From: Bolinopsis microptera
Lineage: Eukaryota > Ctenophora > Tentaculata > Lobata > Bolinopsidae
Direction of reading: 5' to 3'
NCBI RefSeq assembly: GCF_026151205.1
Contig: NC_087083.1
Coordinates: forward strand, 9,607,460-9,671,459
Length of the DNA: 64,000 nt
The position numbers and the translations under genes are program-made. A model generated the notes under the pieces. The model did no database searches, had not been told where the DNA came from, and was given only the letters and a program-made list of their open reading frames with translations. The stretch's first letter is position 1; every line of letters begins with the position of its first letter. Positions 3,001 through 62,300 of the stretch are shown one piece after another.

Positions 3001-6000
3001 ACTTATTTAATATCAACAAACGATTTAGCACCCTTTGGGCTTTGTCTATTAGATCTGAACAGAATACCTTATCAGAATTATTTCAAATTCTATGTTTATA
3101 ACATAGAACATGTTATAACATGTTTATAACATCACATTTTCAGGGATCAGAAGTCTTAGTATCGGTTGGGTGCTTTTGTCCCACATGTTTCTCGTCCCTC
3201 TACTCGCTTCTCAAGGTACCCCTAGAAAAACTTAATTCCACCGTACCTATTTATTTAATTAATCTACACATTTACACATTTAAATCTACACATTTCACAA
3301 CAAGTTCACAGCATCTCCATATTTCTGTGTTTATACACACTGACTGTTCTCAGATCAACTAGCTTCTGATTACAGGAGATGCGTACCAAGCATTCGTGAA
3401 AGGAAAAAGACGCTCTTTTGATATAATTCTCAACGGCTTCCCTTCTGTGGATAGTTTCTTTGTGATGAGGTACTTTTTCAAGAATTTTTAAGAATATCTA
3501 AGTTTTACAATTCTAGTTTTTATACAAGCAATGTCACACATTCGCCCTACAACACTACAAAATGGGTAACATAAAAGGGCCAATATTAACCTTCTAAATC
3601 AATCAGTCACATTTATTTTTCAATAGAGGATGATGGGATCTTGATCATAAATTTGTCAACAATTTCTATTTTCAGTGGCTTTCTTGTGTCTTTTCTTCTT
3701 ATCAAGAACTTTGAGAAAGGGAAAACTTTCAGAGGAATAGCTGTCGGTTACTACGTTCACAGGTATAATATTCAGATCAACATTTCCAACTTTTCGTGAT
3801 CTTTCTAAGAGAATATTCACAGAAAAAAAATCACATAATTCCAAATTTTGGACCTTTTCCAAACAACACCAAGGATGAATAGTAATTTTATCTGCACTTT
3901 CTCAACTCTCGATCTAATGATATTATTTAAGGTACATACGACTTACTATACCGTATTTGATACTAATGTTATTATTTAAGGTACATACGACTTACTATAC
4001 CGTATTTGATACTAATGTTATTATTTAAGGTACATACGACTTACTATACCGTATTTGATACTAATAATATTATTTAAGGTACATACGACTTACTATACCC
4101 TATTTGATACTAATGTTATTATTTAAGGTACATACGACTTACTATACCGTATTTGATACTAATGTTATTATTTAAGGTACATACGACTTACTATACCGTA
4201 TTTGATACTAATAATATTATTTAAGGTACATACGACTTACTATACCCTATTTGATACTAATGTTATTATTTAAGGTACATACGACTTACTATACCGTATT
4301 TGATACTAATGTTATTATTTAAGGTACATACGACTTACTATACCGTATTTGATACTAATAATATTATTTAAGGTACATACGACTTACTATACCCTATTTG
4401 ATACTAATGTTATTATTTAACTCTCGATCTAATAATATTATTTAAGGTACATACGACTTACTATACCCTATTTGATACTAATAATATTATTTAAGGTACA
4501 TACGACTTACTATACCCTATTTGATACTAATGATAATATTTAAGGTACATACGACTTACTATACCGTATTTGATACTAATGTTATTATTTAAGGTACATA
4601 CGACTTACTATACCGTATTTGATGGTGATACTGATACAAGGGTTCCTCTACAGACAGTATATCACTGGTCCTTTTGCTGATAACTTTACACTTGTTAGTT
4701 TTTAGAATAGTTTCTTTATGTGGTGAATGAATAATTTTTCTCTAATTTTTCTCTAATTTTTCTCTAATTTTTCTCTAATTTTTCTCTAATTTGTCTCTCA
4801 ATTGCTGCGTCGGGATTTTTTTGTTACACAAGTAATGATGTGTGTAATCAAGTCTCTCAATAATTAATATAATTAGACTAATTAAATCACACTATACTTA
4901 TAATTATGAACAGTTAATTATTTAATTATCGCACAGGGATACGAGGGTTGTAAGAAATGGTGGTGGGCTAATCTACTTTATATCAACAACTTTTTACCTT
5001 GGTCCTCGGTAAGCTGTTATTTAAATGTTAACCTTAAAATACTTTTAGACTTAGTAGATTACATTTTCCTCATTACATTATTTAAAAATTTAGTTTTTAT
5101 TTATTCTGTGAACTTTATGTGAACTTTAATTTTTTGATAGCACTTGACCAACAAATTAGGGACCGATTGTAAGCTAGTCAATATACAATTAGGTAATTAA
5201 CTTACATATTAGTCACACTATTTAGCCTAATTTGTTACACTAATTAGCATAATTTGTTACACTAATTAGCCTAATTTGTTACACTAATTAGCCTAATTGA
5301 TCACGCTAATTAGCCTAATTGATCACGCTAATTAGCCTAATTGATCACACTAATTAGCCTAATTGATCATACTAATTAGATGATAATTACCCGCATATTT
5401 CCCAGCCAGCTAAATGTGTGGGACAATCCTGGTACTTGGCTAATGACATGCAGTTCTTTATAGTAGCCCCACTTTTTATATGGTTGCTATGGAAATCACC
5501 TGTATTAGGTAAGCTGTGATACTTTATAGTAGCCCCACTTTTTATATGGTTGCTATGGAAATCACCTGTATTTGGTAAGCTGTGATACTTTATAGTAGCC
5601 CCACTTTTTATATGGTTGCTATGGAAATCACCTGTATTAGGTAAGCTGTGATACTTTATAGTAGCCCCACTTTTTATATGGTTGCTATGGAAATCACCTG
5701 TATTTGGTAAGCTGTGATACTTTATAGTAGCCCCACTTTTTATATGGTTGCTATGGAAATCACCTGTATTAGGTAAGCTGTGATACTTTATAGTAGCCCC
5801 ACTTTTTATATGGTTGCTATGGAAATCACCCGTATTAGGTAAGCTCTGACACTTTTATTTATAGTGCGCCCCTTTTTATCTAAACGTAGTTCCAACTGAG
5901 CAATACTTATAATAATACTATAAAACCCCGATTTATCGCGGAGTTTTGGGAAAGGAGAAGCCTTGGTCAATCAAGATTATAGCTTGTAAGATTAGGGTAA

Positions 6001-9000
6001 CTTTATATTGTTACTTACTTTACTTTACTTTATGGATAATGGATAATGATTAATGACACGTGATATAATATCACGTGATATGACACGTGGCACCATCTTC
6101 AGGTAACCTTGTACTGTGGGTGACTGTGCTCGTGTCCATGTTGGCTGCTGGTGTTGCTACTTGGTACTACAAATTCGCCACCTCCCCACTCAGGTACAGT
6201 ACACCAAACAGTATTTAATTTTAACTATTCTACACACTTTGTTAGTCTATAATCACTACTTTACTTGAATAATATTACCAGTGCATCCCTACGAATAGCT
6301 GATTATTCATTATGGGCCACCCTGGAGTTCCTCATTATTCACCATATATTACATTTCAATGGATAATGGACATCACATCACGTGATCATATGTAATGTGA
6401 TACATCACATGATATTACATGTGATACATCACGTGACCCCATATAACCAGGGCAGGAGTGTACGGTAAAGAGTTTCAGTACTACTACACAAAACCCTACT
6501 TCCGTTTTATTCCCTATCTTGTGGGCATATTCGGGGGTTGGCTCTACCATAAGTACGCCAAGAGAATGGAACAACTTGCTAAAATGAAACCAGTTAGTTG
6601 AGAGATAGTCACGTGACATGTGATTGGCACGTGACATTTGTCTGGGTGATGACTAATGTGACATGTTGTATTGTATCTTGATCTAGCGCAACTCGCAATC
6701 AAATAACACGTGAAATGCTAATTTATCTGTTAGTGTGTTTAAGACACGTGACCAGTCAGCAGACATGTGACTATTGACACGTGTTTTTGTTATGGTTGTT
6801 AGTTGTTGGCTCCCAACGAGTTATAATGAATCAAAGTTATTAAAACTGCAATGTTATTCAAGACGATCATTAATCATATTCAATGATTCATAAGTTTTGT
6901 TATTATTCGACTGTGAATAACAGGGAAATTATTTTGAAAATGATTGAAATTAATGCAGATATTGCTTGAAATTAATGTATGCAAAGCGCTGTTGATTTTT
7001 AAAAACCAGTATAGATAACCACTTGAAGCTGTCTGTAAAGATTTTGTAGGGTCCAGTACTAATATCACGCTTTCTACCTTTCTAAGTTTCTAGGAGACTT
7101 GTCTAATGTCTACACTATTTAAACGTCTAATTTATCATTGGCTGTATCATTTCTACTAGAGTACTAGATCATCTCAAACAATGTCTTCACTCTGCATTTA
7201 AATAGTTAATTATAATAACTACATTTAAATAATCAATTTCCATAACTTACATACTTGATATGGGCTGAGTATTGTAACAGATGTAAATGTTACAACCCAA
7301 GGCACTAGCAAGAGGGAATGCACCTAACTACGTCACTTCAGCAGATAAGAGATAAGAATCTGTACCTTCTATTTCATATCGATAGTCTTGTTGTAGCGCT
7401 TTTGCCTCTGGTAAAATCAGTGATGCGCGGCTCAGCAAAGACTTCTCAAATAAGACGTGCTCCTTCATAAACTAGCTCGTGTATTTGAGGTAACCTTATA
7501 TTCACGTTATCTTCAGGGGGAATCTAATAACGTTTCACATATATGACTCCAGTTAACTGTAAGATAGTGACAATTTGAATACGGAAATGGCTCTTGGCCA
7601 ACTAAAAATTGAAATTCTTGCCTCTTTTTTAATTTGATAGCCTTATTCTGTTTCCCCTAAATTACTTCTTACTTTAATTTAGTACCTGGCTCGTAACTTG
7701 TTTACATGTTACAGGTGACAACAGCATTTTTGAAACATGATATAAGGCCCAGGCACCCCATATCCTGAAATACATACCGAAAACCGCATTAAGTTCAACT
7801 GTAAACCTACATATCAAACTACCAACTCAATTATACTCATATTATCCGCTGGATTTGATGATGTTAACTTAATTATTAAGGTTTCTTAAAAATGATATCG
7901 CATTCAACTCATGAAGAGATTCTTACAATCATATTTACAGACTTTCAGATAAACTCGCTGTTAAAAAATGTGTATTTTAACTGCTCAGTTTTCACTCGAA
8001 AAAACCATCATTTTAGTTGCATTGGCCCTTGTCCATAAAAGTTATAATGTTTTCTTCCTGATCTTCTTAATTTAATATTGTGGAATCTGGTGGATTCGTG
8101 TAGTGTTTTTGAGTCTCATGATTTGATAGTTCTTTTATTCAAATTTCTGATTGTTTCTGAATAGACTCAGTGAAGACAAATTCTAATGGAAATAAATAGC
8201 TGAATAACGTATCGACATTTCTACGTCATACTCATATTCTCAAATTATTTGTTATATAGTAGTGTTGAAAGTATTAAAACTGTTTTAATACTTTCAACAC
8301 TACTATATAACAAATAATTTGAGAATATGAGTATGACGTAGAAATGTCGATACGTTATTCAGCTATTTATTTCCATTAGAATTTGTCTTCACTGAGTCTA
8401 TTCAGAAACAATCAGAAATTTGAATAAAAGAACTATTAATATTGTGGGCTATGATTTATAACTCCTAATCTAAAAACAAAAAAGAGGAATGGCCCACCTG
8501 GTGATAGGGCCTGCCACCAGCTTCCGCCTTCCTTAGGGTAAATTTCAGCGTACCAACCCTTTCTTCACATCCGTATTAAACCGATATCTTTTCAACGCAT
8601 AAGTTTCCAAATAAATGTCTTGGTTGCTTATCTCAAGAAACGCTGCAGCTGAGTATTAGTTTTATCTTAGTATTGGTGTTATTTTTATTATTATCATATT
8701 CATTTTTGCACATGTGATAAAACCTTTTGAACCCATTAGGGTCATCGAAACTGTTAAACGAACCATTCTCGAAAAGATTAAAATAATTGAACGTAACTAA
8801 TTTGAGTCTGAATGTATTTCAATATTGTGGATTGATTGATTGTTGGAACTTTGGAAGTTATGATTTTACAAAATGGTCGGTCTATAATTAAATGTTGAAA
8901 TCAGGTAATTTGCTTCAGCATGGCTATACATGTTATCTAGATATCTATAACATGATATCTATACAATATAATCATGTTTATTGATCATAATTATCATTTC

Positions 9001-10429
9001 CGAAGGTATGTAGATGAAGTATCCAGTATGAATTGATGATTAACGTGAACAAATTATAATAAGATCAGTCCGAAAGAACACTGTGTCATTTTGGTTGGAT
9101 ATACTACCTTTCCTATCATTTAAATAAATGTCACACTTTATACCGACAATTTAAAATGCAAATAATTTAATAATAATGATAATAAAAATAACCTTGGTTT
9201 CAGCTGACGAAGCTTGTGTTGTCAGTACAGTTGTGGGCTGTTACAATAGCTATAGAGTACGCGGTAATATTCGGGACACATAACGATGCAGGGATTGGTA
9301 TGTTTAAAAAATGTTTTGTTTGGATTATGACAATTATTTATTTAGTTATGCAAGCAATTAGTTAGATTAACTAGTTAACTAATTAATTAATTTACCAATT
9401 TACCAATTAACCAATTAACCAACAACTTCCATAGCGCCGACAGTAGAATCCCCGGGAGTTACAATACCGTATGCTATATTCGGGAGGGTGGGCTGGGCTG
9501 GTGCTCTACTCACACAGATATTCCTCTGTCAGGCTGGACTCGGAGGTTCGAGGAATTTAAATTTATAGATTTTACACTTAACTTTAACAGTTAATTATGA
9601 CTGTGTTTGTTTGTGAGATTTGTGTGACCAACGTCTGCGCCAAAATTCAATTATTAAACAAACGGACGAGTTTGATTATTGCCCTTATTTGGGCATCACA
9701 TGACAGGGTAAATATTCTTACAATGGTCAATGAGCAAGTAAGTTTAACATAACATTGTGTTTGACAGGTCCTATAAATGACTTCCTGAGCTGGAGGGGGT
9801 GGTTACCGCTGTCTCGTCTCACATACTCTGTCTATCTTCTACACTACGGGATCAACATCGCCTGGGTGGCTCAACTCCGTCATGTTTACAGCTACAGTCC
9901 TGACTTTCAGTCGGTTAGTGTGGTCACGTGATAGTGTGATGTCGTCACGTGATAGTGTAATGACGTCACGAAAAAGTGTGATGACGTCACGAAACAGCGT
10001 GGCGATCTTATGATATACCGTCATGTGACATTTAGTGAATGATATTGTAATGATGATGTCACGCGACATTAAGTGAAGGATACTGTCGTGATGACGTCAT
10101 CACGTCACGTGACACATTTAGTTAACATTTCCTGTTTTCAGGTGGTCATCTTCCTTGGTCTTATAGCAACTGTAAACTTTTGTGGAGTGTTACTGTTTCT
10201 CTTTGTCGAGCAACCGTCTGCTAATCTGGAGAAACTGCTCCTTCCTGCACCTCGACCTCCTAGGAATGTTGCTACAAACATTCCTGATCAGAAGAGGAAC
10301 ATACCTGAGCACAGCGATCAAGTTGAACAGAAAATGGAGGTTCCTGAAGAGCTTGGAGAAATTCCTGATCACAACGGCCACGGGGATTTTGTTCAGACTG
10401 CTGAAGAGAAACTGGAAATTCCTGACTAG
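28..10429 (+). CDS. NRF-6-like (nose resistant to fluoxetine) acyltransferase-3 membrane protein, 5' end missing
   Basis: Multi-pass membrane protein of the acyltransferase-3/NRF-6 family, which moves acyl groups or lipids across membranes (family knowledge; substrate unknown). Seventeen exons, all phases agreeing: 28-91, 1411-1583, 1799-1903, 2334-2495, 2690-2773, 3144-3215, 3376-3469, 3676-3762, 4594-4693, 4937-5008, 5406-5508, 6103-6193, 6451-6592, 9204-9297, 9435-9545, 9768-9913, 10142-10429, giving 661 residues and a stop. Family landmarks in order: first membrane helix after YDAGAYIG, CFSLQRNIQIL, GIRSLSIGWVLLSH with the usual His, SVDSFFVMSGFLVSFLL, RYIRLTIPY, WWWANLLYINNFLP, WYLANDMQFF, RLTYSVYLLHYGI and FVEQPSANLEKLL. 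The tail is hydrophilic with repeated IPD/IPE triplets. The N-terminal Cys-rich NRF domain lies upstream of the window. Two exons (4594 and 5406) carry tandem arrays of their own splice edge. Family assignment is firm; the exon at 1411 is less certain because it abuts a LINE relic. Confidence 0.88.
547..1110. repeat. Dispersed tandem repeat with a GACAGGGCTTGCA core
   Basis: Four copies of a segment with the core GACAGGGCTTGCA followed by GCAAGGGAAGAAA lie near 551, 690, 861 and 1040, about 140-180 bp apart and divergent. They sit directly downstream (minus sense) of the LINE relic at 1159-1395 and could be its 3' untranslated region or an intronic minisatellite of the acyltransferase gene. 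Confidence 0.6.
1159..1395 (-). mobile_element. LINE reverse-transcriptase C-terminal relic
   Basis: Minus-strand reading contains REQDKILAYQDLKREIKK, VTIVPVVVGALGTVTTN and LQKTALLGSARILRMVLDI before a stop. This is the conserved C-terminal end of a non-LTR retrotransposon polyprotein common in invertebrate genomes (recognised by motif, not alignment). Only the last ~80 residues remain, so it is 5'-truncated. The open frame runs on to 1479, but that extension is antisense to the transmembrane exon of the acyltransferase gene at 1411-1583, so I end the element near 1395. Confidence 0.65.
2515..2645. repeat. 11-12 bp minisatellite in an acyltransferase intron
   Basis: About ten copies of an ACACTAATCCT-type unit fill most of the intron between the exons ending at 2495 and starting at 2690. 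Some copies are ACACTAATTCT. No splice edge is contained in the unit. Confidence 0.75.
3931..4610 (+). repeat. 49-bp exon-edge array: 14 copies of an acceptor plus exon start
   Basis: Fourteen copies of a 49-bp unit (starts at 3931, 3981, 4030, 4079, 4128, 4177, 4226, 4275, 4324, 4373, 4447, 4496, 4545, 4594). Each holds TTATTTAAG followed by GTACATACGACTTACTATAC, which encodes the RYIRLTIPY start of the acyltransferase exon. Only the last copy (4594) runs on into the full exon. Copies differ mainly at CCG/CCC and show a three-copy (147-bp) higher-order rhythm. A 25-bp interruption lies near 4420. The period is not a multiple of three and read-through meets a TAA, so upstream copies are decoy acceptors. 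Confidence 0.92.
4735..4800. repeat. 11-bp TTTTTCTCTAA minisatellite
   Basis: Six copies of TTTTTCTCTAA in the intron after the exon ending at 4693; purely intronic. Confidence 0.8.
5210..5380. repeat. ~20-bp CACTAATTAGCCTAATT minisatellite
   Basis: About eight copies of CACTAATTAGCCTAATTGAT and its TTTGTTA variant fill the intron ahead of the acceptor at 5405. Confidence 0.8.
5455..5852 (+). repeat. 66-bp exon-edge array: six copies of an exon end plus donor
   Basis: Six copies with TAGTAGCCCC starting at 5461, 5527, 5593, 5659, 5725 and 5791. Each unit holds the last part of the acyltransferase exon (FIVAPLFIWLLWKSPVL) followed by the donor GTAAGCTGTG. The first copy is joined to the unique exon start at 5406. 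The period is divisible by three, but every junction carries an in-frame TGA, so only the first donor leaves the frame open. Copies alternate between TATTAG and TATTTG at the junction. Confidence 0.92.
6593..9203. other. Large acyltransferase intron, no gene seen
   Basis: A 2.6-kb intron between exons 6451-6592 and 9204-9297. It contains scattered CACGTG/CACGTGA motifs near 6600-6780, AT-rich sequence and the foldback element near 8080-8440. I see no open frame with codon structure. Confidence 0.6.
8080..8440. mobile_element. Palindromic foldback MITE (copy 1)
   Basis: Two arms of about 155 bp meet at 8279-8282 with almost no loop. The left arm reads GAATAACGTATCGACATTTC and the right arm gives its exact complement. 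The left side extends further out to about 8080 (TGGATTCGTGTAGTG), which the right side of this copy lacks. A second, more diverged copy lies at 31946-32215 and a fragment near 63606. There is no coding capacity, so it is a non-autonomous element or large hairpin-forming repeat. Confidence 0.88.
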
Positions 10430-10550
10430 AGCGATAAAATCCTGATCAGAAAAAGGGAATTCATGGACAAAACGAAAAGCAGTGAACCATTAACCAGGCA
10501 AAATGGATTCAAAAATTAACTTTTAGACCCTTTGGTTGCCTCCGATAGCA

Positions 10551-10551: not shown

Positions 10552-10629
<78 letters not shown>
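10552..10629. repeat. 78-base homopolymer G tract
   Basis: Seventy-eight consecutive G residues, 120 bp past the acyltransferase stop codon. Other long G/C runs lie at 11212-11230, 11297-11311, 15863-15885 and 19763-19780. Length of such a run is prone to sequencing or assembly error. Confidence 0.95.
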
Positions 10630-15400: not shown

Positions 15401-18400
15401 TGGTCGAAAAATATCGTGTCAATTAATGTCAGTATTCCAAAATTTTGCAAAACTGACATTGACATTAATTGACATTAATTGACATTAATTGACATTAATT
15501 GACATTAATTGACATTAATTGACGTTGCATCACCCCCCTTGTAATCAAGGTACTCAGTAACATTCCATCTCTAACAATCAAACGTAAACTTGTAATCAAG
15601 GTACTCAGTAACATTCCATCTCTACCAATCAAACTTGTAATCAAGGTACTCAGTAACATTAAGGTGCATGGTAGGTCCACCGTAGAAATCCAGCACGAAG
15701 ATGTTCTGTATGTTGAGCTTGTAGAAAGCAAACCCGTGACTGACTGGCCAGTTCTTGGTTGCAGGGTGTCTTGTGAACATACCGTATTTCGACCATGTGA
15801 CTTCAGCTTCGTCAGTTACTTTCTCCATCTCTCCTGCGGAAGGTGGAAGTTAAATTGGTGATGGGGGGGGGGGGGGGGGGGGGGGAGGTAATTAGAGGTG
15901 CTCGACAGTATTTTTCTAAAAATTTGCCTAAAAACTTTAAGTACAATACCTGACAACATTACTTTGCCACATCTCGGATCGTCGTTATCCACACCATTGT
16001 CATTGCACCAGTGAGTAAACTCGGAACTGTAGCCAAATGTAACTTTGGGGTCCTTCAGGAAGTCCTGTGCTTGTATCTCCAGGTGAGAGGTGTAGATACA
16101 GGGTACTCCTGGAGGTGGCCGTGGGGTCGATGTTATATCACTATCAGGGGAGAAGTTGTAGTGGGAGACCGGGGAGGTTTTAATCAAAGAAATCAATTAA
16201 AATACCACCCTACCACGAGATCAAACCAAACTCACCAGTTGACAAGGTCTCATTCCACAGTCCATCAGCCACATCCTTGTTCTGTCCAAAAGGGAACCCA
16301 TCCAGAAAAGAAGACTGTGTAGCTAGGATGCTGACATTAGAGAACTTTACCATCCAGCGAGCATTCCCCACTAGATCCTGGTGGGGAGGTGGTGGTTCTG
16401 GCTCTCTTAGGACCGGTACTGGCTCTCTTAGGACCGGTACTGGCTCTCTTAGGACCGGTACCGTGAGGGTGAGGGGGAGGAGGAGGAGGAGGATGGCTAT
16501 CTGGAGTAGACACTTCATAACTACTGTCAGGGAGGGAGTAAGAGGGTTTTTTAATGGAATATCCAAATTTATATAAATATATCTATATGATCTATCCGAT
16601 TACTGGCGGTATTGAGGAATCGTACGATATTCTTAATATGTTTGGCAGTACTACAAGCAAAATAATACTGGGAAATTCTGTTGGACTGTAACATTTCCTC
16701 GCGATTGATGAAATTTAAAGACTTCGGTCAAAAAGTGCATACTTTCACTCTGGCGAATCAGGAGCAACACTGTATGTGAAAAAGGAGCCACACATTGTAC
16801 GTGAAAAAAGAACGGCACAAGAAGCCATATTGTACCTGAAGACGGCACAAGGAGCCAAATTGTACCTGCAACGCAGCAACTTAATAAATAACGCAGCAAC
16901 TTAATAAATAAAATAAAATACAGTTCACCTTACAGGCATGCCGTGAAGAATTGTTGAAGTTCCTTACGTTAGTTTACCGTGACATTATTTATCTCTCAGC
17001 TGATGTTATATTAGCCGTGTGATTCTTTGTTTGTTGGAATTGAAAGCAAAGTCTTATCTGTTTAGTTGGTTGGAATTAGAAACATGGTCTTATCTGCTTG
17101 AAGTTGAGGTATTTAGTTTCACATTCCTGAGCTACTCTCAGCAATGTACCAGACCCTCTGTCAGAAAATGAAGCTGATTTGAGAATTTGTGAGTGTAAAA
17201 TTTGTGAGTGGTTCGGATCTAAGCCATGTCTTATTTTAAAGTTCAGAGTAAATCAGCAAAAAAGCAAAGTAAAATGAAATTGACAACACAAAGCCGGAAA
17301 ACATGTGTTAAGACGACATCCTGGCATTATTTTGACATTTAATTCAATATAAGATTATCTAACACGAGACTAACAATACCAAATCTACAAAAGGAGCTCA
17401 AGATTGTAACTAAGAAAATTAAAGTATGTTTTCTAAAATTCTATAAGATCATTCACGTTACATGATATAGCAGGATAAAACAGGAAATTTGATAGGACGG
17501 ACAGACCATCTGAAATTTGTTATTTAGTACCCTGTGATTTTATCGCTAGAAGAGTTGATATATGCTTAAGGAGCACGCTATTGTTTAGGTCATGCAACAC
17601 TTTCTACCTTTGTTCATTAGATCCTCAAATATTATCAAATTACTACTGAAGTACTGAATACCAAGTTTATAATACCAACTATTATACTACAAAGAAATTC
17701 CACGTTATATCAAATTAATGTTTAATTACCAAGTAAAACCAAGTTGTATAAAGTATTAGGTCTTATCAATTATCATAGGAAAAAATAATATGTATCTGTA
17801 AACTATAGTTAATGTACTGCATACAATTTAAATGTTCGAATTAGTATTTACTATCATTATTCTTAAATTATACTTTCATCCCTCCAAATGTGGTCTACAA
17901 GTTCAATTCTTTATCAGAGGCGCAGGCATTTACTTAATTGTCAACTAATTAACTAATTACACATTCCAGGTAGCGAGAGTATTCCAGCACCCAAGAAAGA
18001 GGAACTGATCGACATGGACGATATTCGGGACATTGTTAAAACTAAAACTTTAGTTTCAACAAACAAGTCTTTCTATAAGAGCTTACCCATGGTATGTTGA
18101 AAACGTTCATTCGTGAATTTAAATGTGATCAATTTGGAACGATCTGTGGATTCACTATTAAAACAAAGATTTTAGTAAAACACTGGTTTTAGTAAAACAC
18201 TGGTTTGACTTCTTTTTAACACACAATTATAATTGCTGCTTCAAGACCACGTGCTATTAAACCCAGGTGAAGACAGTGCCACCTAATATGGAGGGAGTTA
18301 AGAGACCCTTGGACCAGGTCTTCGTTCATGATCGTCCCGGAGATCTCCCCCAACTTTCTAGAGTCCCTCGTTGTACAAGGTTTGTAGTATTACTCTTTTT

Positions 18401-44385: not shown

Positions 44386-44389
44386 TCAC

Positions 44390-44545
44390 TTGTTATGACG
44401 TCACATGTTATGACATCACGTATTATGATATCATGTGACTTTACGTGTTATGACGTCACGTGTTATGACATCACGTATTATGATATCATGTGACTTCACG
44501 TGTTATGAAGTCACGTGTTATGACGTCACGTATTTAGATATCACA
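44390..44545. repeat. TGACGTCACGTGTTA repeat block
   Basis: About eight copies of a 16-18 bp TTATGACGTCACGTG or TTATGATATCATGTG unit immediately upstream of the first BTB exon. The TGACGTCA and CACGTG palindromes match CREB/ATF and bHLH consensus sites, but their tandem origin makes regulatory use uncertain. Confidence 0.75.
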
Positions 44546-44555: not shown

Positions 44556-47500
44556 GTGGCGGAGAGTGCAGCTGTGAGCGCTGGAGACAAGAGAGCCCCC
44601 TCAGTAGGCTCCACTCCACACTCTTCCAACAACTCCGCTCCGAGGTCCTCCTCCTCTGTTTCCTCCTCCTCCGGGCAGGACAAGTACTTTTACAGGGACA
44701 AGTTGGTGTTTGATCCTGATGTCTACATCAACAACCCATCCTACTCAGGTCATAAGATTAGTGTGTACTCACTGGATATAACATTAACAGCGTTTACTGT
44801 TTTTTCTTTATTCAAATTTTGCTTTCTTTTTCTTTTTTCCCTAGTTTTCTCCTTTTTCTCCTCTCTCATGTATTTAATACTATTGCAGATTTCCAATTTA
44901 ACGCCTCGCGCACTATTGCAGATTTCCAATTTAACACCTCTTGCACTATTGCAGATTTCCAATTTAAAGTGGGATCCTCGGAGATAGGACTCAGCGGAAT
45001 AGTTTTAGCAGCTAACAGCTCCTTTATTCACTTCAAGATCCACTCTGAGAACTGCAAACGTCTTGATGTATCTACTTTGGAGCTGGACGTCGAGCAGGTT
45101 TTATTAGCGTCAAGTATAATCATCATGAGTGATGTGACGTCATGTCAAGTGGTGTGACGTCATCTCATGTGGTGTGACGTTATGTCATGAGGTGTGACGT
45201 CATGTCAAATGGTGTGACGTCATGTCAAGTGGTGTGAATTCATCTTATGTGGTTTGACGTCATCTTATATGGTGTGACGTCATGTCATGTGGTGTGACGT
45301 CATGTCGATTGGTGTGGCGTAATGTCAAGCGGTGTGACGTCATCTTATATGGTGTGACGTCATCTCATGTGACACTGTATTGATAAACGTCACGGCGTCA
45401 ATCAATTACCGTGATTTTTAGTAAGTAAGTAAGTATATGACGTCATCATCACCAATATGACATCATCATCACCAATAAAACAGTCTTATCTTCAGGTTAA
45501 AGAGATGGTGAGGCCTCTTTACAACGGGAGACTCTCTCTAAACTCCCGCAATCTCCTCAGTTTCCTCATGTTTAGCACTCTCTTTGAATTTCAGTGGATA
45601 TTTGACTGCTGTCTAGTCTACTTTACAGAGGTTTGTTTTAAGAAGTTTAGATGATTCGACCAAAAAGTGCTGCAAATTAAAAATGGCCAATATGGTCGTG
45701 GTATGAAACAATTTTATAATACGTACTTTCAGAAGCCAACATTTTGCATTTGTTTTTCCTTCAATATAAATAAGTCGAGAAGACAAAAATTAAAAACCAG
45801 ATAATAGACCGGATGATAAACAATCGCGATCAAGTTAACCCCAAACAACCCCTAACAACCCCTAACAACCCATAACAACCCCTAAAAACCCCTAACAACC
45901 CCCTAACAACACCTAACAACCCCTAACAACCCCTAACACCCTCCTAACAACACCTAACAACCCCTAACAACCCCTAACAACCCTTAACAACCCCTAACAA
46001 CCCCTAAAAACCCCTAACAACCCCTAACACCCCCTAACACCCCGACCAGCACATCAACCCGGAGCTAGTGTTTGACTTCCTGGAGCTGGGATTACGGTCC
46101 CAAAACCACTGTATGGATAGCTACAGAGTAGTGATGAAGCTGTGCTCCAAATACCTGGAGGAGGGTCACAATATGCAGCTCACTTGTGCGCACATAAAGG
46201 TCAGTCGTCTTTAGTTAGCTGACTAATTAACTAATTAAATAATTAACTAATTAACTAATTAACCAGCTAATTAATTAACTTATCAATTAATTGGTTTGTT
46301 AATATCCTTGGTGATAATCATAGGAATTAAATGATCACTTAGTAATCGAGATAGCGAGAGTTTAACATGGTAATGAGTATGACGGGGGTGTCCAGGAAAC
46401 CAACAGTGCTAGGGCTTGAATAAAATACTAAACGCTCAGGGCGTCTTGGTTCGCATAAGGTCCGTAAGGAAAAAAATGCATGCTGTCGCACTCCAACCTA
46501 CACAGATAGTTTCGTTGCAGGAATGTAACAAGATGAAGAAATTGTCACGTGATTTGGTGGAGTTCCTGTGCAGTGTAAACACCCACAACTCGATAGATGT
46601 CCTGTCCCTCGTTCTCTTCTGGCTCAGACTGGGTCTGTACATTTCCTTTTATAATTCTGTTTGATTTGTATTTCAGTGATGATCTGATACATCCATACAT
46701 ATGTTGAAATTGAATTGTAAAAATCTTTCAAATTTCTATTCGTTTTTTTAAACACTGTTGTGAATTATAATTGGTCGTGTTGACTGTTGATTCTTAACGG
46801 TTACATTCAGATGATGGTTGAACTTTCGTTTTATTCCCTAACTTAATTGTGCGACGTCATACCACGTGCTGTGTAACGTCATACCACGTGCGGTGTGACG
46901 TCATACCACGTGCGGTGTGACGTCATACCACGTGCGGTGTGACGTCATACCACGTGCTGTGTGACATCATACCACGTGCTGTGTGACGTCATACCACGTG
47001 CGGTGTGACATCATACCACGTGCTGTGTGACGTCATACCACGTGCTGTGTGACGTCATACCACATGCTGTGTGACGTCATACCACGTGCGGTGTGACGTC
47101 ATAACGTAAGTGCTCACCATCTCTTTGTCATAAAGATGTTTTGCTCGAGCACGCGTTCCTCTTACTGCTAAAAACCTCGTGCATTTCCATGTACAACGTG
47201 ACTGGTGACTCTACATGTATTGAACTGCATATCTAGCATAATTATTGATTAAAATATGCGATCGTTTAGCACACTAATTATCAAAAGCTAATTTTCCCGA
47301 ATACCTTCATTTTTACTCCATTATCATGCATGCTTGACATCTTAATTGAAACGTTTTGATTTTATAATCAATAATCATGCTAGGCCTAGATAATTAATAA
47401 AATTTCACCTCTTCATTCTTCAATTTCAGACACTAAAAATATGGAAGTAGTCCCGACTCTTCTGGACTCATTTGATTTTGCTGACGTGTTCAAACAGAAC

Positions 47501-48314: not shown

Positions 48315-49384
48315 TTTTTTTTTTTTTTTTTTTTTTTAAAGAGAGGCTGGGCCTGGTTGGCCCACGAGAGGATAGCATATGGATGCTTTGCCTACCTCTG
48401 GGGTATGGCAGTCCTGTGGGAGGATGCCAGCGGAATCAAGATGTGTAATCACGGATGATGGTAAGTGTTGTGGGGTGTGTTATAGATAAACGGTTAGGTG
48501 GTGGTTGAGTGTGGAAGAGAGGGGCGAAACAAGACGGCGTTAAAGTAGTCGCTATGTTACACCTGTCTGGTCCAACTCCTCCGGCACCACTAAGCGTTTA
48601 GTGTGGTTTGTAAAGTTGACAATGGTGGAGATGTGTTGGTTGTCGAATATGTCATTGACAGAGAGGTAGTAGTCCCGGAAATATTGACCTCTTATTTGGG
48701 CAATAGCCGGGCACTGTCCGAGAAAGTGTGAGACAGTCTCCTCTCCGTCGCCGCATTTTGGACAAGCACTTGTGTCTGATTTGTGGATGGTGTGTAGGTG
48801 TTTGTTGAGGCCACAATGTCCCGTGATGAGGTGCACTGCAGTTCTGTAATTTTGTCTGTTGTTGCTGAGTGTAGTGTTGAGATTTTTGATGATGTTGATG
48901 TTTTTATGTCCAAGTGTCAGTTTAGTGTGTCTGGGACCATTAGTAATCCATGATTCTTGATTAAGTTTTGTGACTTTGTCGTTGATCAGGCGTTTGATGT
49001 AAGATTGTGGAATTGGGCAATTCAAAGTGGATTCACTGGTTGTGCCATTTTTGGCCAGCTCGTCTGCTTTTTCATTACCCCACAATCCGATGTGTGCTGC
49101 TATCCATCTGATCTCTAAGGTGTTAGTGGATCCGAGTGTATTGAGGGTGTCGTAGCAGTCTCTAGTGGTTCTACTCCTCGTTGAAGGTGAGGATATAGCT
49201 TGAATAGAGGAGAGACTGTCTGACCATATGATGATATGTGTGTTTGTGTAAGTTGATAGATATTTACAAGCTTCGATGATGGCAGTGAGTTCAGTTTGAT
49301 AAACGGTGCAATAATCAGGAAGCTTGAATGATCTTTCATCTAGTGTAGTGTTGTTGTTGTCTGTGGTGATAATATAACCACCAT
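48315..49384 (-). mobile_element. 5'-truncated LINE with RNase H domain and poly(A) tail
   Basis: Minus-strand element of about 1.07 kb ending in a run of T at 48315-48338 (its poly(A) tail). It is flanked by a perfect 12-bp target duplication, AAAATCAGTCAC (48303-48314 and 49385-49396). The coding part shows RNase H motifs VYQTELTAIIEAC, IIIWSDSLSSIQAI and IGLWGNEKADELAKNG, then a Cys/His box HCGLNKHLHTIHKSDTSACP. That order fits the C-terminus of a non-LTR polyprotein with RNase H (I/Jockey-like). The RNase H part looks open, so the insertion is young; the reverse transcriptase is missing. Confidence 0.92.
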
Positions 49385-49396
49385 AAAATCAGTCAC

Positions 49397-50377: not shown

Positions 50378-53300
50378 CGATTCTAACCCAGAACTTCCTG
50401 TAACTGACATGATCCTGTTCATCTTGGGTGACTTGACCATGTCGGATATCCTGCAGTAAACCAGGGGTTAGATACCGTAACCAAGGTACTGTAACCAAGG
50501 TACCGTAACCAAGGTACCGTAACCAAGGTACCGTAACCAAGGTACCGTAACCAAGGTACCGTAACCAAGGTACAGTAACCAAGGTACCGTAACCAAGGTA
50601 CCGTAACCAAGGTACCGTAACCAAGGTACCGTGACCAAGGAACCGTAACCAAGGTACCGTAACCAAGGTACCGTAACCAAGGTACCGTAACCAAGGTACA
50701 GTAACCAAAGTACCGTAACCAAAGTACCGTAACCAAGGTACCGTTACCAAGGTGCCGTAACCAAGGTACCGTAACCAAAGTACCGTAACCAAAGTACTGT
50801 AACCAAGGTACCGTAACCAAGGTACCGTAACCAAGGTACCGTAACCTAGGTACCGTAACCTAGGTACAGTAACCTAGGTACCGTAACCAAGGTACCGTAA
50901 CCAAGGTACCGTAACCAAGGCACCGTATATAATTTGTCAAACAAGGTTATAGTATATTTAGGGTAAAATATTTATGGTAGAATAAATTTAGTTTAGCAGA
51001 CTTTTTACCATGCGACCATGGTCCCCTTTGTAATATTTTTTGAAATAAATGTTCAGAAAGATGGATAATATTTTGCACGTACTTAGAGCGAAGGTTTATA
51101 GCCTGCTTAGCGAGGTTAATCTGAAGAGTGGTACCGGGACTGGGCGGTTTCAGATCCGTATCTATTGTAGCTACCACGTTGATTGCAATGTTACCCAGCC
51201 TGATCTGGTTCAACGTCTCTGATGAATAAAGTTACAACAATATGCTAATAAGTTAAGTAAATATGCTGATAAGTGAATAATGTGAATTTGAACTTAATAC
51301 GTTATACTTTGTCAATTATCAATATCCCAAAAAAAAGTTTCGTATAGAAGAAAACCAACCTGCTCTCCTTTGTTCAGCGATTATAAACTGTTCGTTGGCC
51401 CGGGCTTCCGAATCAGTTGCTTCAAGTGCACACCTGTAACAAAGTGCAATCACAATAAGCTGAATAGTTTCAGGAAACACTTATAAATAGTGTAACCCAG
51501 TTATTGACAACAATCGTTTTCTTCGCAGTGGGAACTCTGAAATCTGAATCAAGTAAACACTCCCCTCCCCCCTTCGGTACTTAGGTAAGACACAAAAAAT
51601 CCCCCTCCCCTTAAGTAAGATACAAAAACAGCCCTTACTTTCTAGCTCCAATAGCACGACCCCGTGACAGCACTGCTTTCTCTTTTGCTAGTTTCGCTGC
51701 TTCCTCCCCCGCCACTGCTGACCTCTGTGCCTGTGACAAACGCAGACATGTAACTTTTACTGCAGTAAAAATAATGTTGACACATTCTGCCCGGCAGAAT
51801 TTTACAATAGAATAAGATAAAGCACTACCAAATGTTCACATGAGTACGCGAATTAGTACATATATTTTAAAGTTATTTTAGTGTGTAATGTATACTGTAC
51901 AATAGTTTTACAGTATTTGATACATTAGAATTATCAGAAATGTAAAACGTACTGTACTGGTGAGGATTCTCTTGTTGACTTTACAAACGTTCTTACTCCA
52001 TTTACCACAATGCTCCAGACCGTTCAGGTCTATCAGTACTCCCTGTCCGTGCTTCTTGTTGTCCTGGTTACGTAGTACGAGTATGAGATATTGCAAATAT
52101 TCGTTCTATTGAATGGGGGTTAGGAATGTATGAATCCATCATCAACATTTTTATTACTTGATGTCGAAATCTAAGTAGAAGGTCATGGTGTTGAATTATC
52201 CGTCAGAGCTATATAGAGCACACGCACACGTGATAAACCTAGAGCACACGTGATAAACTTAGTCACACGTGCTAAACTTAGTCACGTGATAAACTCAGTC
52301 ACACGTGCTTTTAACTTAGAGCACACGTGCTAAACTTAGTCACGTGATCATCCAATGTACAATGTTATCATCCGTGATAGGTTACAAATCCTAAAACTTA
52401 CCTTGAATGTCCCCCTGAAAGTTTGTCCTCGAGAGGTTTTCTCTATTCCAAATCCATACCTCGCATCATCTTTCCATTGTCCCATGTATAATACGGTTGC
52501 CTTATAACGGAGTATAAAAATCACTGGTTCTTGTTTTTTAGTTTTTTATAATTTCTAACATAAACTCGCACGAAATTTTGCTGAAAACTAAATTATCAGT
52601 TCCAATCTCAAATCGTTTTTGTGGTTATTTGTTGAATAAGTAATATATTTCAGCACAAATATAAATATTAATTTACCTTCTCGAATATGTCACTGGATAA
52701 CTCTATATCCAAAGAACTGATAACATCCAATGCCGACATAAGAGGATTACGAATTTGTTTTATTTCCGTTCCTCCCGTTTCAGGATTTAACCCGTCTTCT
52801 GTCTATTTCAGAGTTTAAATGTTACTGTTAGCTTAAAATTTATTTACCTTTTTTTACTGTCTACCCAGCCCAAAGCCTTAAAATCCCTTGCTAGCTTATA
52901 TTTATAAAAAAGGGCAGAACCTATAATTATCAAAACCAAAGATTTAAAAAATTACTGAAATATACAATTGTTGATACATTTTGTTTTATTTTTTGATTTT
53001 TAAATTTATCAAGGTACCTAATGTAATAATATGTATAAACATATTAAGAAAATGTTCTCCAATGAATTAAGTGATAACATTATTTCCCTCACCAATAAAG
53101 CAGAAAAGACAAACTTCTGTTGATCAGTGGGGTTTTCTATTTTCACTCCATACCCACTACGCAATCCTGCATCAAACTGCCCCGCGTAGAAACCTGGTGT
53201 GCATAAGTGTAATTCTTGTTATACTTGTAGTGATTGTAATGCTTGTAATGCTTGTAATGCTTGTAATGCTTGTAATGCTTGTAATGCTTGTAATGCTTGT

Positions 53301-56300
53301 AATGCTTGTAATGCTTGTAATACTTGTAGTGCTTGTAATGCTTGTAGTGCTTGCAATGCTTGTAGTGCTTGTAATGCTTGCAATGCTTGTAATGCTTGTA
53401 ATACTTGTAATGCTTGCAATGCTTGTAATACTTGTAGTGCTTGTAATGCTTGTAATGCTTGTAAAATACATAGACACGGCACGAAAACATCTGAGATCAC
53501 TATATAACTAAATTGTGTTTTCGGACAGGTACGATGCAACAACTAACTAGTGCGATTAAATTAGATGGCACTGTGCCAAGTAGTGCGACTATATCTGGTG
53601 ACACCAAATTTACAGAACAGCTCCAGTAACTATTACAAAGGCGTTAGAAGACCAGTCATTACACGAAGGAATCCTCCCTGTAAACATTTAAAACGTTATG
53701 GTAAGAGTTTGGAAGGGTTCCAAATCTTAAAGACTCACTAACTTCCATCCCGGTAAGTCTCAATGCCACATCCCTCTTGTAAGTCCCTGTGCCACGTTCC
53801 CTCGTACTTAGATCCACTGTGACTTGTTATTACTCCGTACCCTTCTTTCAGGTCCTCCACCCATTCTCCCTGAAATGTGACTTGTTATTACTCCGTACCC
53901 TTCCTTCAGGTCCTCCACCCATTCTCCCTGAAGTGTGACTTGTTATTACTCCGTACCCTTCCTTCAGGTCCTCCACCCATTCTCCCTGAAGTGTGACTTG
54001 TTATTACTCCGTACCCTTCCTTCAGGTCCTCCACCCACTCTCCCTGAAGTGTGACTTGTTATTACTCCGTACCCTTCCTTCAGGTCCTCCACCCACTCTC
54101 CCTGAAGTGTGACTTGTTATTACTCCGTACCCTTCCTTCAGGTCCTCCACCCATTCTCCCTGAAGTGTGACTTGTTATTACTCCGTACCCTTCCTTCAGG
54201 TCCTCCACCCATTCTCCCTGAAGTGTGACTTGTTATTACTCCGTACCCTTCCTTCAGGTCCTCCACCCATTCTCCCTGAAGTGTGACTTGTTATTACTCC
54301 GTACCCTTCCTTCAGGTCCTCCACCCACTCTCCCTGAAGTGTGACTTGTTATTACTCCGTACCCTTCCTTCAGGTCCTCCACCCATTATCCCTGAAGTGT
54401 GACTTGTTATTACTCCGTACCCTTCCTTCAGGTCCTCCACCCATTCTCCCTGAAGTGTGACTTGCTATTATTTCGTACCCTTCCTTCAGTTCCTCCAACC
54501 ATTCTCCCTGAAGTGTGATTTGTTATTACTCCGTACCCTTCCTTCAGGTCCTCCACCCATTATCCCTGAAGTGTGAATTGTTATTACTCCGTACCCTTCC
54601 TTCAGGTCCTCCACCCATTCTCCCTGAAGTGTGACTTGTTATTACTCCGTACCCTTCCTTCAGGTCCTCCACCCACTCTCCCTGAAGTGTGACTTGTTAT
54701 TACTCTGTACCCTTCCTTCAGGTCCTCCACCCATTCTCCCTGAAGTGTGACTTGTTATTACTGGGTACCCTTCCTTCAGGTCCTCCACCCATTCTCCCTG
54801 AAATGTGACTTGTTATTACTCCGTACCCTTCCTTCAGGTCCTACACCCACTCTCCCTGAAGTGTGACTTGTTATTACTCCGTACCCTTCCTTCAGGTCCT
54901 CCACCCATTCTCCCTGAAGTGTGACTTGTTATTACTCCGTACCCTTCCTTCAGGTCCTCCACCCGTTCTCCCTGAAGTGTGACTTGTTATTACTCCGTAC
55001 CCTTCCTTCAGGTCCTCCACCCATTATCCCTGAAGTGTGACTTGTTATTACTCCGTACCCTTCCTTCAGGTCCTCCACCCATTCTCCCTGAAGTGTGACT
55101 TGCTATTATTTCGTACCCTTCCTTCAGTTCCTCCACCCATTCTCCCTGAAGTGTGACTTGTTATTACTCCGTACCCTTCCTTCAGGTCCTCCACCCACTC
55201 TCCCTGAAGTGTGACTTGTTATTACTCCGTACCCTTCCTTCAGGTCCTCCACCCATGCTCCCTGAAGTGTGACTTGTTATTACTCCGTACCCTTCCTTCA
55301 GGTCATCCACCCATTCTCCCTGAAGTGTGACTTGTTATTACTCCGTACCCTTCCTTCAGGTCCTCCACCCATTCTCCCTGAAGTGTGACTTGTTATTACT
55401 CCGTACCCTTCCTTCAGGTCCTCCACCCATTCTCCCTGAAGTGTGACTTGTTATTACTCCGTACCCTTCCTTCAGGTCCTCCACCCATGCTCCCTGAAGT
55501 GTGACTTGTTATTACTCCGTACCCTTCCTTCAGGTCCTCCACCCATTCTCCCCGAAATGTGACTTGTTATTACTCCGTACCCTTCCTTCAGGTCCTCCAC
55601 CCACTCTCCCTGAAGTGTGACTTGTTATTACTCCGTACCCTTCCTTCAGGTCCTCCACCCATTCTCCCTGAAGTGTGACTTGTTATTACTCCGTACCCCT
55701 CCTTCAGGTCCTCCACCCACTCTCCCTGAAGTGTGACTTGTTATTACTCCGTACCCTTCCTTCAGGTCCTCAATCAGCTTCCACTATTGACCAATCAAAC
55801 GCCAAAATACTACCACATGTCTAAAATGATGCTACACATCCCCACCAGAATTCACATCTACCAATGTTAAGCTCGTTATCAAACCATCGTGGTTCAACAA
55901 GCTAATTGTGTGGCTACCAAGCGGTACTGGTAAACTTTCGGTAGCTATTAAACAACAACTGCTTAAACAATAGCGCTAAAATACGTGATGGTATTAATTT
56001 CAGAGATGACATCAGTCTTTTACCTTTATAAATACTTGCTGGTTTTTACCTTGTAAACATAGTTCTTGTGTTGTTCTATTCCCTCCCCGTTCCTCCTTCC
56101 TTTCGCCCAGAAACCACTGTACCTCACATTATTCGGCCATGTGTAACAACCTGCACATTATATGTGTAACAATTTGCACATTTAAGTGTAACAATTTGCA
56201 CATTATTTGTGCAACAATTTGCACGTTATATGTGTAAAAATCTGCAAAGTGCACATTATATGGAGATAATTTCATTTTGATTTTAATTTCTTATTTGCAC

Positions 56301-58610: not shown

Positions 58611-59478
58611 CTCTATAACCATGATTGTGTGTCTCCTTACTACACCTCCTATTCTTAACATACTCTCCAAACTCCACCTTTATATCCGCTATGTGCTCGT
58701 ATTTCTGGTCGGCTGGCGTTTTCCTCAGCGTTTTCCACAGAGACGGTGATCTCATGTCCATGGAGATCCGGCTCTTCTTTTTCCTGTTCTTCAGCAGATA
58801 ACCCGCACTGGAACCTCTCTCTGTTTCCAAAGTGGAGCTGTGTTTTATACGGTCATCTAAAGAAAATCGTCCTGGTCTTAGCACAGAGGGTTTCTCAAGT
58901 TTAGAAACAGATCTTTGTCGCTTGTTGCTGTGTGATGATGACAGCTTGTTGTTTTTAATGCTGTTGTCTGATGCAGACCTGAACATGTGTGGAGGATCAG
59001 ATGCCAGCAGTTGAGGGGGTGTTACTTCCCAGTTCAGTTCCCACGGAGGAATCTCACCTTCTTTGATTACATCACTCTCCTGGATCATGACACGTGTCAC
59101 ATCACGTGTCGTGCCACGTGTCATGTCACGTGTAGTGCTATCCCCTGTATTAAGTGACTCCTCTAGTTTATCCGACTGTTGTCCCACAGTGCAAGATGTG
59201 GGGGGATGAGGGGATATTGGAGGAGCTTCAAGCTCACCAGTTCTCCTGCTACGATCGCTTGCGGAGTGACTCCTACTTTGTGAGGACATGTCGTCATCAT
59301 CACTCATTTCCTGACTCATCTGCCGTGTGAGTGAGTGACGACGTGATATACCCGCTCCTTCTTCACAAGATGTCCTGTTGTTAGTTATACTCTGTAGGTG
59401 ATCTGTGTGAGTTGTTATCTCTGGGACTGTTGGTAGAGATAGTTGTGGGTCATGTCGGTAATGGTTCCGGACATCCAT
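58611..59478 (-). CDS. Candidate alternative first exon of junctophilin, disordered Ser-rich protein part
   Basis: Open frame of 289 codons from ATG (MDVRNHYRHDPQLSLPTVPE) to a clean donor AGAG|GTGAGT. The phase (one base over) is the same as that of the short first exon 56902-57100, so it can join exon 56682 without a frame change. The protein is polar and low-complexity: RRHSLTRQMSQEMSDDDDMS, TRDMTRGTTRDVTRVM, RSASDNSIKNNKLSSS, KNRKKKSRISMDMRS. Many RxxS sites suggest kinase targets (inference). No domain recognised. It could also be the end of a separate gene whose next exon I did not identify. Confidence 0.6.
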
Positions 59479-61435
59479 AACACTGGTGCAGAGATAAGTC
59501 AATACTTCAAAACTTACAAGAACAATGAAATGAATCTGTATATACTGCAGTCAAAAGGTGAATGTTTTAAAACGGTAAATTGGTGAATTATAGTTTTATG
59601 AAATATATATATATGAATATTGAATAATTAATTAAATAGTTAGTGTTAACTGATTTAGAAATTAAAAAGTAAAGCTGTCTGTAAGAAAATAAGAAAGTAA
59701 AAAGTAAGCAGTTAATGAACAACTCGGTCGAGTTCCTCTAACACTAAAATACTGACATAACCAGGCGTCTAACTGTTCGCACTAATAATTTGAAGCTCAG
59801 TGACCGACACATTGTCACCGGAAACATTGCTCCCTTACTACGCTAGCAGCAATTAAATTATTAGCAGATTGACAACTTGAAAATCTAAAGTTAATTAATT
59901 GAGGATACATGTCTTGGTTTTATGAATTAATTGAGGATTAAAGAAGCAATGTTTAATATGCAGCTGCACTAATCACTATGCTACTATGCACAAAATGATT
60001 ATTTTTATCGAGCGGGTAGAAAATGATTGTTTAATTAATATACATTAAATTGATATTTAAAATTAAATTCGAGATTTCGCGACCCTTCAGACTAAGGACA
60101 GTTACTATCCAGGTTTGTCTTTTTTTCAACACACGGAAGACAGTATAATGGCGGAACATTAGGGTGGAAAATATGGCGGTACTTTTTGAAAGGGTGGAAA
60201 ATATGGCGGAAATTTTTGAAAAGAGTGGAAAATATGACAGTACTTTTTTAAAAGAGTGGAAAATATGGCTTTACTTTTTGAAAAGAGTGGAAAACATGGC
60301 GAAACTTTTTCAAACGAGTGGAAAACATGGCGGAAATTTTTCAAAAGAGTGGAAAATATGGCGGTACTTTTTAAAAGGTTGGAAAATATGGCGAAACTTT
60401 TTCAAATGAATAGGCAGTACGGCATATTTTTTCTGAAAGGGTGGACAGTACGACAGAACTGTCCTAAAAGAACGAACAACTGTGCCATGCTGTGCACTGT
60501 GCCATGGTTTGACGCACAGCATGGCACAGCGCACAAAACAACTCCAGTGATTATAAATAATAACGTTAACGTATATAATCCTAAAGAAAAGAAAATATTT
60601 CCGTATTGTTCTACGACATATTCACAAAAATGGCAGGTCCTGATCGACATTATTGTCATGATCGAGTGTGGACACGTTGATTAAGGACTCAAATGTGGCT
60701 ACTGAACTACTGCACGAACTATTTGATACCTACCTGACGTAACAACAGCAATGTGCTCTCTCTCTCTCAAAATCTCGCTCTGAATTGTAACGGTGCTTAC
60801 TGGCAGTCAATGATCGTTATTAATTGTGTTTTATTGGTAGCCCATTAATCGGGGTTTTGTGTGAGAATATTTGAAGTTTTCTGAGGTTGGGTAGAGGTCT
60901 ACAGGAAGTAGGGTCTGTGCTAAGTACGGGCATTATATGTCAATTATAAGACAATTAGTAAAGTGTGATGAAAGTCATTATCAGCAGTATGTGGTTTTTC
61001 ACATTTTTTTATTTCAAAATTCGAATAAACTTTACATCAATGTATTACAGTTATATTTAGAAAAGACCACAATATCTCCTGTGAGGCAAAAACATGGAAA
61101 AGAGAGCTAGAAAAATATTCATGAGACTCAACACTACCAGACTGCAGCTGGAGTGAGAAACATTATGTAAAAAATGGTATTTGAAATGTACACTCTGTGA
61201 AAATGTTTAGTGTGGTTGCTTTTATATTAAATTGGCACTCTAGAAACAAAGCTCAATTATTTTGTATCCATTTAGCAACTACCGAGGCATTATATTTCTG
61301 TATCAAGTATGCGACTGATGAAGTGTAATGAAAGCGATTCCAATTTTTCACATTCAGAATTCAGATGGAGTTGTAAAATATGTATACCTTAGGTATGATA
61401 ATTTCCCTACTTGCTATCTTCTAGAATTTTAGAGT
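59479..61435. other. Upstream spacer, no gene seen
   Basis: AT-rich with the 30-bp minisatellite at 60160-60420, listed separately. No exon with convincing splice signals. Confidence 0.5.
60160..60420. repeat. ~30-bp GGAAAATATGGCG minisatellite
   Basis: Nine copies of a unit such as AGTGGAAAATATGGCGGTAC plus TTTTTGAAA. Thirty bases keep the frame, so one plus-strand frame reads VENMAVLFER-type decapeptides; there is no sign of splice sites or a gene around it. Confidence 0.85.
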
Positions 61436-61439
61436 TTTA

Positions 61440-62300
61440 TCACTTACCATTTTCATCAGTAATAAGTTTTATCACTTTCCATTTTCATCTGTAATGAGTT
61501 TTACCACTTACTATTTTCATCTGTAATGAGTTTTACCATTTACCATTCTCATCTGTAATGAGTTTTACCACTCACCATTTTCATCTGTAATGAGTTTTAC
61601 CACTCACCATTTTCATCTGTAATGAGTTTTACCACTCACCATTTTCATCTGTAATGAGTTTTATCACTTACCATTTTCATCTGTAATGAGTTTTACCACT
61701 CACCATTTTCATCTGTAATGAGTTTTATCACTTACCATTTTCATCTGTAATGAGTTTTACCACTCACCATTTCATCTGTAATGAGTTTTACCACTCACCA
61801 TTTTCATCTGTAATGAGTTTTACCACTCACCATTTTCATCTGTAATGAGTTTTATCACTTACCATTTTCATCTGTAATGAGTTTTACCACTCACCATTTT
61901 CATCTGTAATGAGTTTTACCACTCACCATTTTCATCTGTAATGAGTTTTATCACTTACTATTTTCATCTGTAATGAGTTTTACCATTTACCATTCTCATC
62001 TGTAATGAGTTTTACCACTCACCATTTTCATCTGTAATGAGTTTTACCACTCACCATTTTCATCTGTAATGAGTTTTATCACTTACTATTTTCATCTGTA
62101 ATGAGTTTTACCACTCACCATTTTCATCTGTAATGAGTTTTACCACTCACCATTTTCATCTGTTATGAGTTTTACCACTCACCATTTTCATCTGTAATGA
62201 GTTTTACCACTCACCATTTTCATCTGTAATGAGTTTTACCACTCACCGTTTTCATCTGTTATGAGTTTTACCACTCACCGTTTTCATCTGTAATGAGTAT
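61440..62300 (-). repeat. ~31-bp exon-edge array: more than 25 donor copies
   Basis: Around 27 copies of TTTTCATCTGTAATGAGTTT plus TACCACTCACCA. On the minus strand each reads ATTACAGATGAAAATG|GTGAGTGG: the last codons of the exon at 62279-62399 (ITDEN) with donor GTGAGT. A minority read GTAAGT. The unit also contains CATTACAG, an acceptor-like word, so a copy can look like a nine-base mini-exon. Confidence 0.9.

Follow-up and report, generated by a model that had tools for sequence, protein, structure and literature searches.

At least nine minisatellites in a 64,000-nt stretch of the Bolinopsis microptera genome (the window) have repeat units made of the edge of an exon, its splice site and part of the adjoining intron. 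Our preferred reading, with a probability of about 0.68, is that they are minisatellites of the 'mirage' type, produced by position-indifferent duplication and sorted by selection in a stretch where minisatellites are dense and introns short.

Tandem Repeats Finder (TRF) returns 98 rows for the window, which merge into 67 loci, 63 of them with periods of at least 10 nt. Arrays cover 11,539 of the 64,000 bases (18.0%). The original prediction of twelve exon-edge arrays in five genes was largely right and is partly confirmed. TRF places an array at or near all twelve positions, although the one expected at 35752 begins at 35809, and the predicted copy numbers, where stated, match those of the program (arrays at 3914, 5456, 25179, 53818 and 61432). 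Protein homology supports the junction in nine of the twelve. For two others the support is just an open frame, and the last lacks coding support. The nine are found at 3914 and 5456 on the plus strand, in an acyltransferase gene; at 23835, 24664, 25179, 29523, 30093 and 31336 on the minus strand, in a TSP1/SRCR gene; and at 53818, also on the minus strand, in a MORN gene. Protein support thus covers three genes rather than five.

The acyltransferase gene is modelled from 3376 to 10429 as ten consecutive exons (N5-N14) separated by nine introns. The model starts at N5, without the 5' part of the gene, and further exons may lie within its 947- and 2611-nt introns. The spliced protein matches Pfam Acyl_transf_3 (E 1.1e-12). 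Exon N7 (4594-4693) has an acceptor array at 3914-4623 with 14.5 copies of a 49-nt unit, a figure obtained by merging two TRF rows of 10.3 and 4.0 copies. Each unit consists of 19 nt of intron ending in AG and 30 nt of exon, and the junction is in frame, with ...YYVHR continuing as YIRLTIPYL. The donor array of exon N9 (5406-5508) occupies 5456-5855 and has 6.1 copies of a 66-nt unit that combines 53 nt of exon with gtaagctgtgata. A run of 78 G residues is located at 10552-10629.

The TSP1/SRCR gene is modelled on the minus strand at 22105-32794, with 23 consecutive exons and 22 GT-AG introns that yield one open frame from a putative start; the gene probably extends below 22105. Pfam TSP_1 matches a run of seven TSP1 units in 7 stretches (E 2.6e-79), and Pfam SRCR matches each of four rebuilt SRCR domains with E 1.3e-10 or better. 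TSP1 exons T1-T8 are 171 nt long, T10-T12 are 180 nt and T9 is 183 nt, while T13 (251 nt) continues into further sequence. Introns recur at all modelled TSP1-TSP1, TSP1-SRCR and SRCR-TSP1 borders. A search for relatives of the TSP1 stretch in viral_contigs and genome_contigs found none, which says little because these collections are described as holding viruses, bacteria and archaea.

Six of the protein-supported arrays belong to this gene. Donor arrays are attached to TSP1 exon T11 (24023-24202; array 23835-24044, 27-nt unit, 7.8 copies), SRCR exon S3a (25396-25521; array 25179-25433, 44-nt unit, 5.8 copies), TSP1 exon T5 (29600-29770; array 29523-29620, unit of about 31 nt, 2-3 copies, divided between two TRF rows by an indel) and TSP1 exon T1 (31440-31610; array 31336-31469, 49-nt unit, 2.7 copies). 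Acceptor arrays are attached to SRCR exon S3b (24498-24677; array 24664-24990, 65-nt unit, 5 copies) and TSP1 exon T4 (29927-30097; array 30093-30329, 9.1 copies of a 26-nt unit with 21 nt of intron and 5 nt of exon). The S3b and S3a arrays, predicted at 24660 and 25145, lie at opposite ends of the single intron between these exons. The 205-nt intron between T11 and the SRCR exon S4a is nearly all array and would shrink to about 22 nt if the array were removed. The 27-nt units at 23835-24044 are in frame and free of stop codons, and use of a decoy donor there would append ECNTFKCNG-like repeats to the protein.

A further duplication, outside the earlier list, takes in the whole intron between T2 and T3 (30698-30957, minus strand; 88.75% identity over 80 nt). 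In its middle are a decoy T3 acceptor, an 8-nt exon remnant and then a decoy T2 donor at about 30794. It is one of seven near-tandem self-matches found outside the TRF arrays. The other six have 61-69% identity; two are at spaced TSP1 exons, one is at SRCR exons, and three are at 534-1165.

The working splice site was predicted to be always the copy joined to the unique body of the exon. This rule is upheld in the TSP1/SRCR gene: spliced at those sites, the 23 exons read as one open frame, and the length is 171 or 180 nt in 11 of 13 TSP1 exons. Exons T1, T4, T5 and T11 carry junction arrays yet are of standard length, so the working site would be the splice copy attached to the exon body, which keeps the protein whole. 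The near-constant exon lengths and the single open frame give indirect support to normal splicing despite the arrays.

Elsewhere in the window, a MORN-repeat exon has an acceptor array (53818-55771, minus strand) with 33.7 copies of a 58-nt unit that includes about 6 nt of intron and 52 nt of exon. Pfam MORN matches the hand-joined exons with E 5.3e-23. A probable acceptor array at 44879-44967 (plus strand; 33-nt unit, 2.7 copies) and a probable donor array at 61432-62298 (minus strand; 32-nt unit, 27.1 copies) are each recognized from an open frame, and their translations match no Pfam family. The acceptor array predicted at 35752 was dropped: tandem repeats are present at 35559-36255 (plus strand), but no coding frame is visible at the supposed acceptor.

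Arrays in coding sequence also occur away from splice sites. The last codons and stop codon of a CREG-like gene (Pfam CREG_beta-barrel, E 1.8e-36) are covered by an array of 45-51 nt units at 15538-15660 on the minus strand. This comparison case is a boundary array at a stop codon and includes no splice site. Three wholly exonic arrays, noticed in passing rather than by a systematic search, are in frame. One is in the CREG-like gene (16394-16461, period 21), and two are in an open frame that has no Pfam match (34378-34437, period 18; 34661-34727, period 21).

Other features of the window include a AACCCCTAAC array of 20.5 copies at 45837-46043 and palindromic motifs similar to CACGTG or GTGACGTCA that recur in minisatellites at unrelated loci (9923-10099, 34184-34239, 44386-44543, 45129-45371, 46848-47103, 52225-52348 and 59085-59138). 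An open frame at 48555-49388 with RNase H and weak zf-RVT matches is probably the end of a LINE-type element. No relatives of this frame were found in viral_contigs, a result that says little since the collection is described as viruses, bacteria and archaea. No known RNA family matched the window at gathering threshold.

The internal makeup of the repeat units was compared in 11 arrays, the nine with protein support and those at 44879 and 61432. Six are donor arrays and five are acceptor arrays, with one of each kind contributed by the two weakly supported cases. The exon part of the unit ranges from 5 to 53 nt. The position of the junction within the unit is scattered, with exon shares of 0.19-0.90 (Kolmogorov-Smirnov test against a uniform distribution, P=0.39, n=11). 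Of 111 units, 107 have intact splice dinucleotides, a count that includes the working copies and takes only gap-free units no more than 28% divergent. Loss of these dinucleotides resembles the divergence of a few per cent seen across the units generally, and the decoy GT and AG dinucleotides do not appear to be specially conserved. Because the unit length is not a multiple of 3 in 8 of the 11 arrays, a coding segment could not end at most of the decoys. Exonic sequence within the unit has diverged less than intronic sequence in 8 of 11 arrays, some of them with only 2 or 3 counted units.

Copies within an array are not identical, and their variants follow patterns. In the six arrays examined, there are 17 unit variants among 34 units (MORN), 10 among 26 (61432), 5 among 14 (3914), 3 among 6 (5456), 6 among 6 (25179) and 4 among 8 (30093). 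At 3914, for example, the variants are ordered ABBCBBCBBCDCEB.

A genome-wide trait that had gone undescribed was suggested at the outset, but mirages are already known from lancelet genes. The tandem-duplication model of intron origin reportedly dates from 1989, and the Adh paper from 2002. Among the matches listed by a full-text literature search, this structure occurs only in two papers on lancelets (PMC3087553, PMC3902484). According to the passages retrieved from them, mirages occur in the Adh3, globin and troponin C genes of lancelets and are minisatellite-like units of 10-160 bp over a 5' or 3' exon boundary. The AG or GT is intact in many, though not all, copies, and the arrays are reported not to disturb splicing (PMC3087553, PMC3902484). 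Length that is unstable between haplotypes or somatic cells, and homogenisation of units inside an array whose edge units are distinct, also count among the features of the type. The passages from the second paper list the Adh, troponin C and globin mirages and mention that PGBD5 of lancelets has duplications of a similar, though imperfect, kind (PMC3902484).

Three structural features of mirages that could be tested outright are found in the ctenophore arrays. The unit contains the boundary (9 of 12 predicted arrays), both 5' and 3' boundaries are affected (6 donor and 5 acceptor arrays), and most AG and GT dinucleotides are intact (107 of 111). Compared with the lancelet cases, as far as the retrieved passages describe them, the arrays studied here differ in their density (at least nine in 64 kb), in their presence at both ends of one intron, and in forming almost all of another, and they are known from one sequence. 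The duplicated whole intron and the intron that is nearly all array are new details.

Whether arrays span junctions more often than expected was assessed with the TSP1/SRCR and acyltransferase genes, using arrays (TRF score at least 50, period at least 10) that overlap the 31 introns between consecutive exons. The MORN, CREG-like and other genes are outside this comparison because their exons are not all known, and the T2-T3 duplication is uncounted because it is absent from the TRF list. In the null model, arrays are collapsed to one unit, and one unit of each array's length is placed at random over the modelled introns. A hit is a placement that takes in 3 nt or more of both exon and intron. 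With the T5 array counted, 8 of 17 arrays span a junction, compared with 2.64 expected by random placement (P=0.0016) and 4.29 if arrays may be placed only within the introns that host them (P=0.023). When TRF boundaries are taken blindly, the count is 7 of 17 against 2.64 expected (P=0.0086) or, within host introns, 4.27 (P=0.076).

Over twelve settings of score and period with blind TRF boundaries, P ranges from 0.0001 to 0.0165; the corresponding range for placement in the host intron is 0.002 to 0.13. If the 2611-nt intron is left out, 8 of 16 arrays span a junction (P=0.005). Among arrays scoring at least 150, the proportion is 7 of 9, compared with 1.7 expected (P=0.0002), or 3.2 expected within host introns (P=0.004).

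The original prediction also held that random birth of minisatellites would rarely include a splice junction so often. An excess over chance is present, but it is modest (about 3-fold over random placement and about 1.9-fold within host introns), and it comes post hoc from 17 arrays in two genes. All of these P values are optimistic because the window was chosen for the pattern seen in it. 'Rarely' is too strong, as such overlaps have a base rate that is by no means low. Arrays occupy 18% of the window, and 26 of the 31 modelled introns are no longer than 457 nt, so straddling of junctions should be frequent by chance. If only the 11 arrays whose units reach 25 nt or more are taken, chance would make 2.16 (about one-fifth) to 3.65 (about one-third) of them cross a junction. 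Such counts therefore need a null model that takes length into account.

The preferred reading runs as follows. Short segments would be tandemly duplicated at more or less any position, and the resulting arrays would grow and shrink through slippage or unequal exchange. A duplication wholly within an exon would break the frame and be lost, save where its length is divisible by 3, while one wholly within an intron would be neutral. A duplication at the edge of an exon would be tolerated, since splicing can keep the copy on the unique exon body and the others then become intron. A process blind to splice sites and followed by selection would yield all of the classes described above: junction arrays, the stop-codon array and in-frame exonic arrays. 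The scattered register of the units and the array over the stop codon fit duplication that is indifferent to position and filtered by selection. The residual 2- to 3-fold excess could reflect a modest bias in array birth, longer survival of junction arrays or the post hoc choice of window.

Several observations strain this reading or speak for a rival, in which duplication is truly favoured at splice junctions, whether by a mutational process tied to transcription or splicing or by some property of the sequence at exon edges. The count of 8 in 17 exceeds what position-indifferent duplication predicts (P=0.0016 and 0.023), and most of the strongest arrays (7 of 9) span junctions. The S3a-S3b intron is amplified at both ends, and a separate duplication takes in both sites of the T2-T3 intron. 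Donors with arrays look somewhat stronger than others (Mann-Whitney P=0.06, n=5 and 27), but acceptor strength is no different between array-bearing and other exons (P=0.62, n=3 and 29). The lower divergence of exonic parts in 8 of 11 arrays is not predicted by simple neutrality. A process that favours splice junctions, as first proposed, has no direct evidence, however. Registers are scattered (P=0.39), donors and acceptors are about equally affected (6 and 5 of 11), and one array covers a coding end. Old, decayed junction copies show no clear excess in other introns, where 5 of 52 tests give P<0.05 against about 2.6 expected, a count that leaves out the T2-T3 duplication and 10 tests made at known arrays. 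With only 17 arrays from two genes chosen post hoc, a true preference for junctions is rather doubtful. Birth of arrays at exon edges driven by GC content was also considered and rejected: wholly intronic units have a mean GC content of 0.323, compared with 0.344 and 0.324 for the array-free introns of the two genes, and show no GC preference.

It is quite improbable that selection maintains the arrays because extra splice sites are useful, for example by preserving intron length or offering alternative exon ends. The T11-S4a intron would be left with about 22 nt without its array, and the in-frame, stop-free units at T11 (27 nt) and at 44879 (33 nt) are such that alternative sites would only lengthen the protein. 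These cases are offset by the 8 of 11 arrays whose unit lengths are not multiples of 3 and by decoy GT and AG dinucleotides that are not visibly more conserved than the rest of the unit. Least probable of all, and by a wide measure implausible, is that the copies are false products of genome assembly. The run of G residues at 10552 shows that hard repeats are present, but the patterned differences among units in the six arrays examined speak against assembly stutter.

Junction arrays may bear on the question of how introns move. An alignment of the four SRCR domains has hardly any gaps, yet their internal introns are found at three places: after GILF in S1, after SYRN in S4, and after C(R/K) in S2 and S3, where the two introns are 2 nt apart. 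Arrays are concentrated in the S2 and S3 introns. Both of these introns, which separate C(R/K) from E, consist largely of tandem array: one has a 26-nt array, and the other has a junction array at each end. The 26-nt array (26474-26718) makes up most of the intron in the second SRCR domain, and two sister SRCR domains lack an intron at this place. This pattern is what intron movement driven by mirages would leave, although gain, loss and sliding are indistinguishable and undated without relatives.

Related processes have been proposed in other lineages. In potato RdRp, the retrieved passages of one paper describe intron gain from duplication across an intron/exon boundary (PMC4974935). As in this AGGT model of intron gain by tandem duplication, boundary-crossing duplications in the window multiply splice sites. 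In contrast to the potato case, no new intron is shown by the window: arrays at TSP1 exons sit in introns that sister exons also have at the corresponding borders. Passages on Drosophila attribute novel intron positions to sliding or tandem duplication (PMC2891723). Introns at nearby but different positions are shared with that system, here as three sites in four SRCR copies, but these are paralogous domains of one gene and not orthologues. We hold it to be unlikely, on present evidence, that duplication in this lineage is biased to exon edges and that the resulting arrays move or create introns, as the SRCR introns in three places might suggest. If this were true, junction minisatellites would continually supply new intron positions.

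How introns originate has been debated for a long time, and one suggested source is duplication that takes in splice sites. Direct counts and RNA-seq could put this idea to the test in a genome that has many such arrays per 100 kb. Such a genome would also reveal how splicing handles more than 30 near-identical competing sites.
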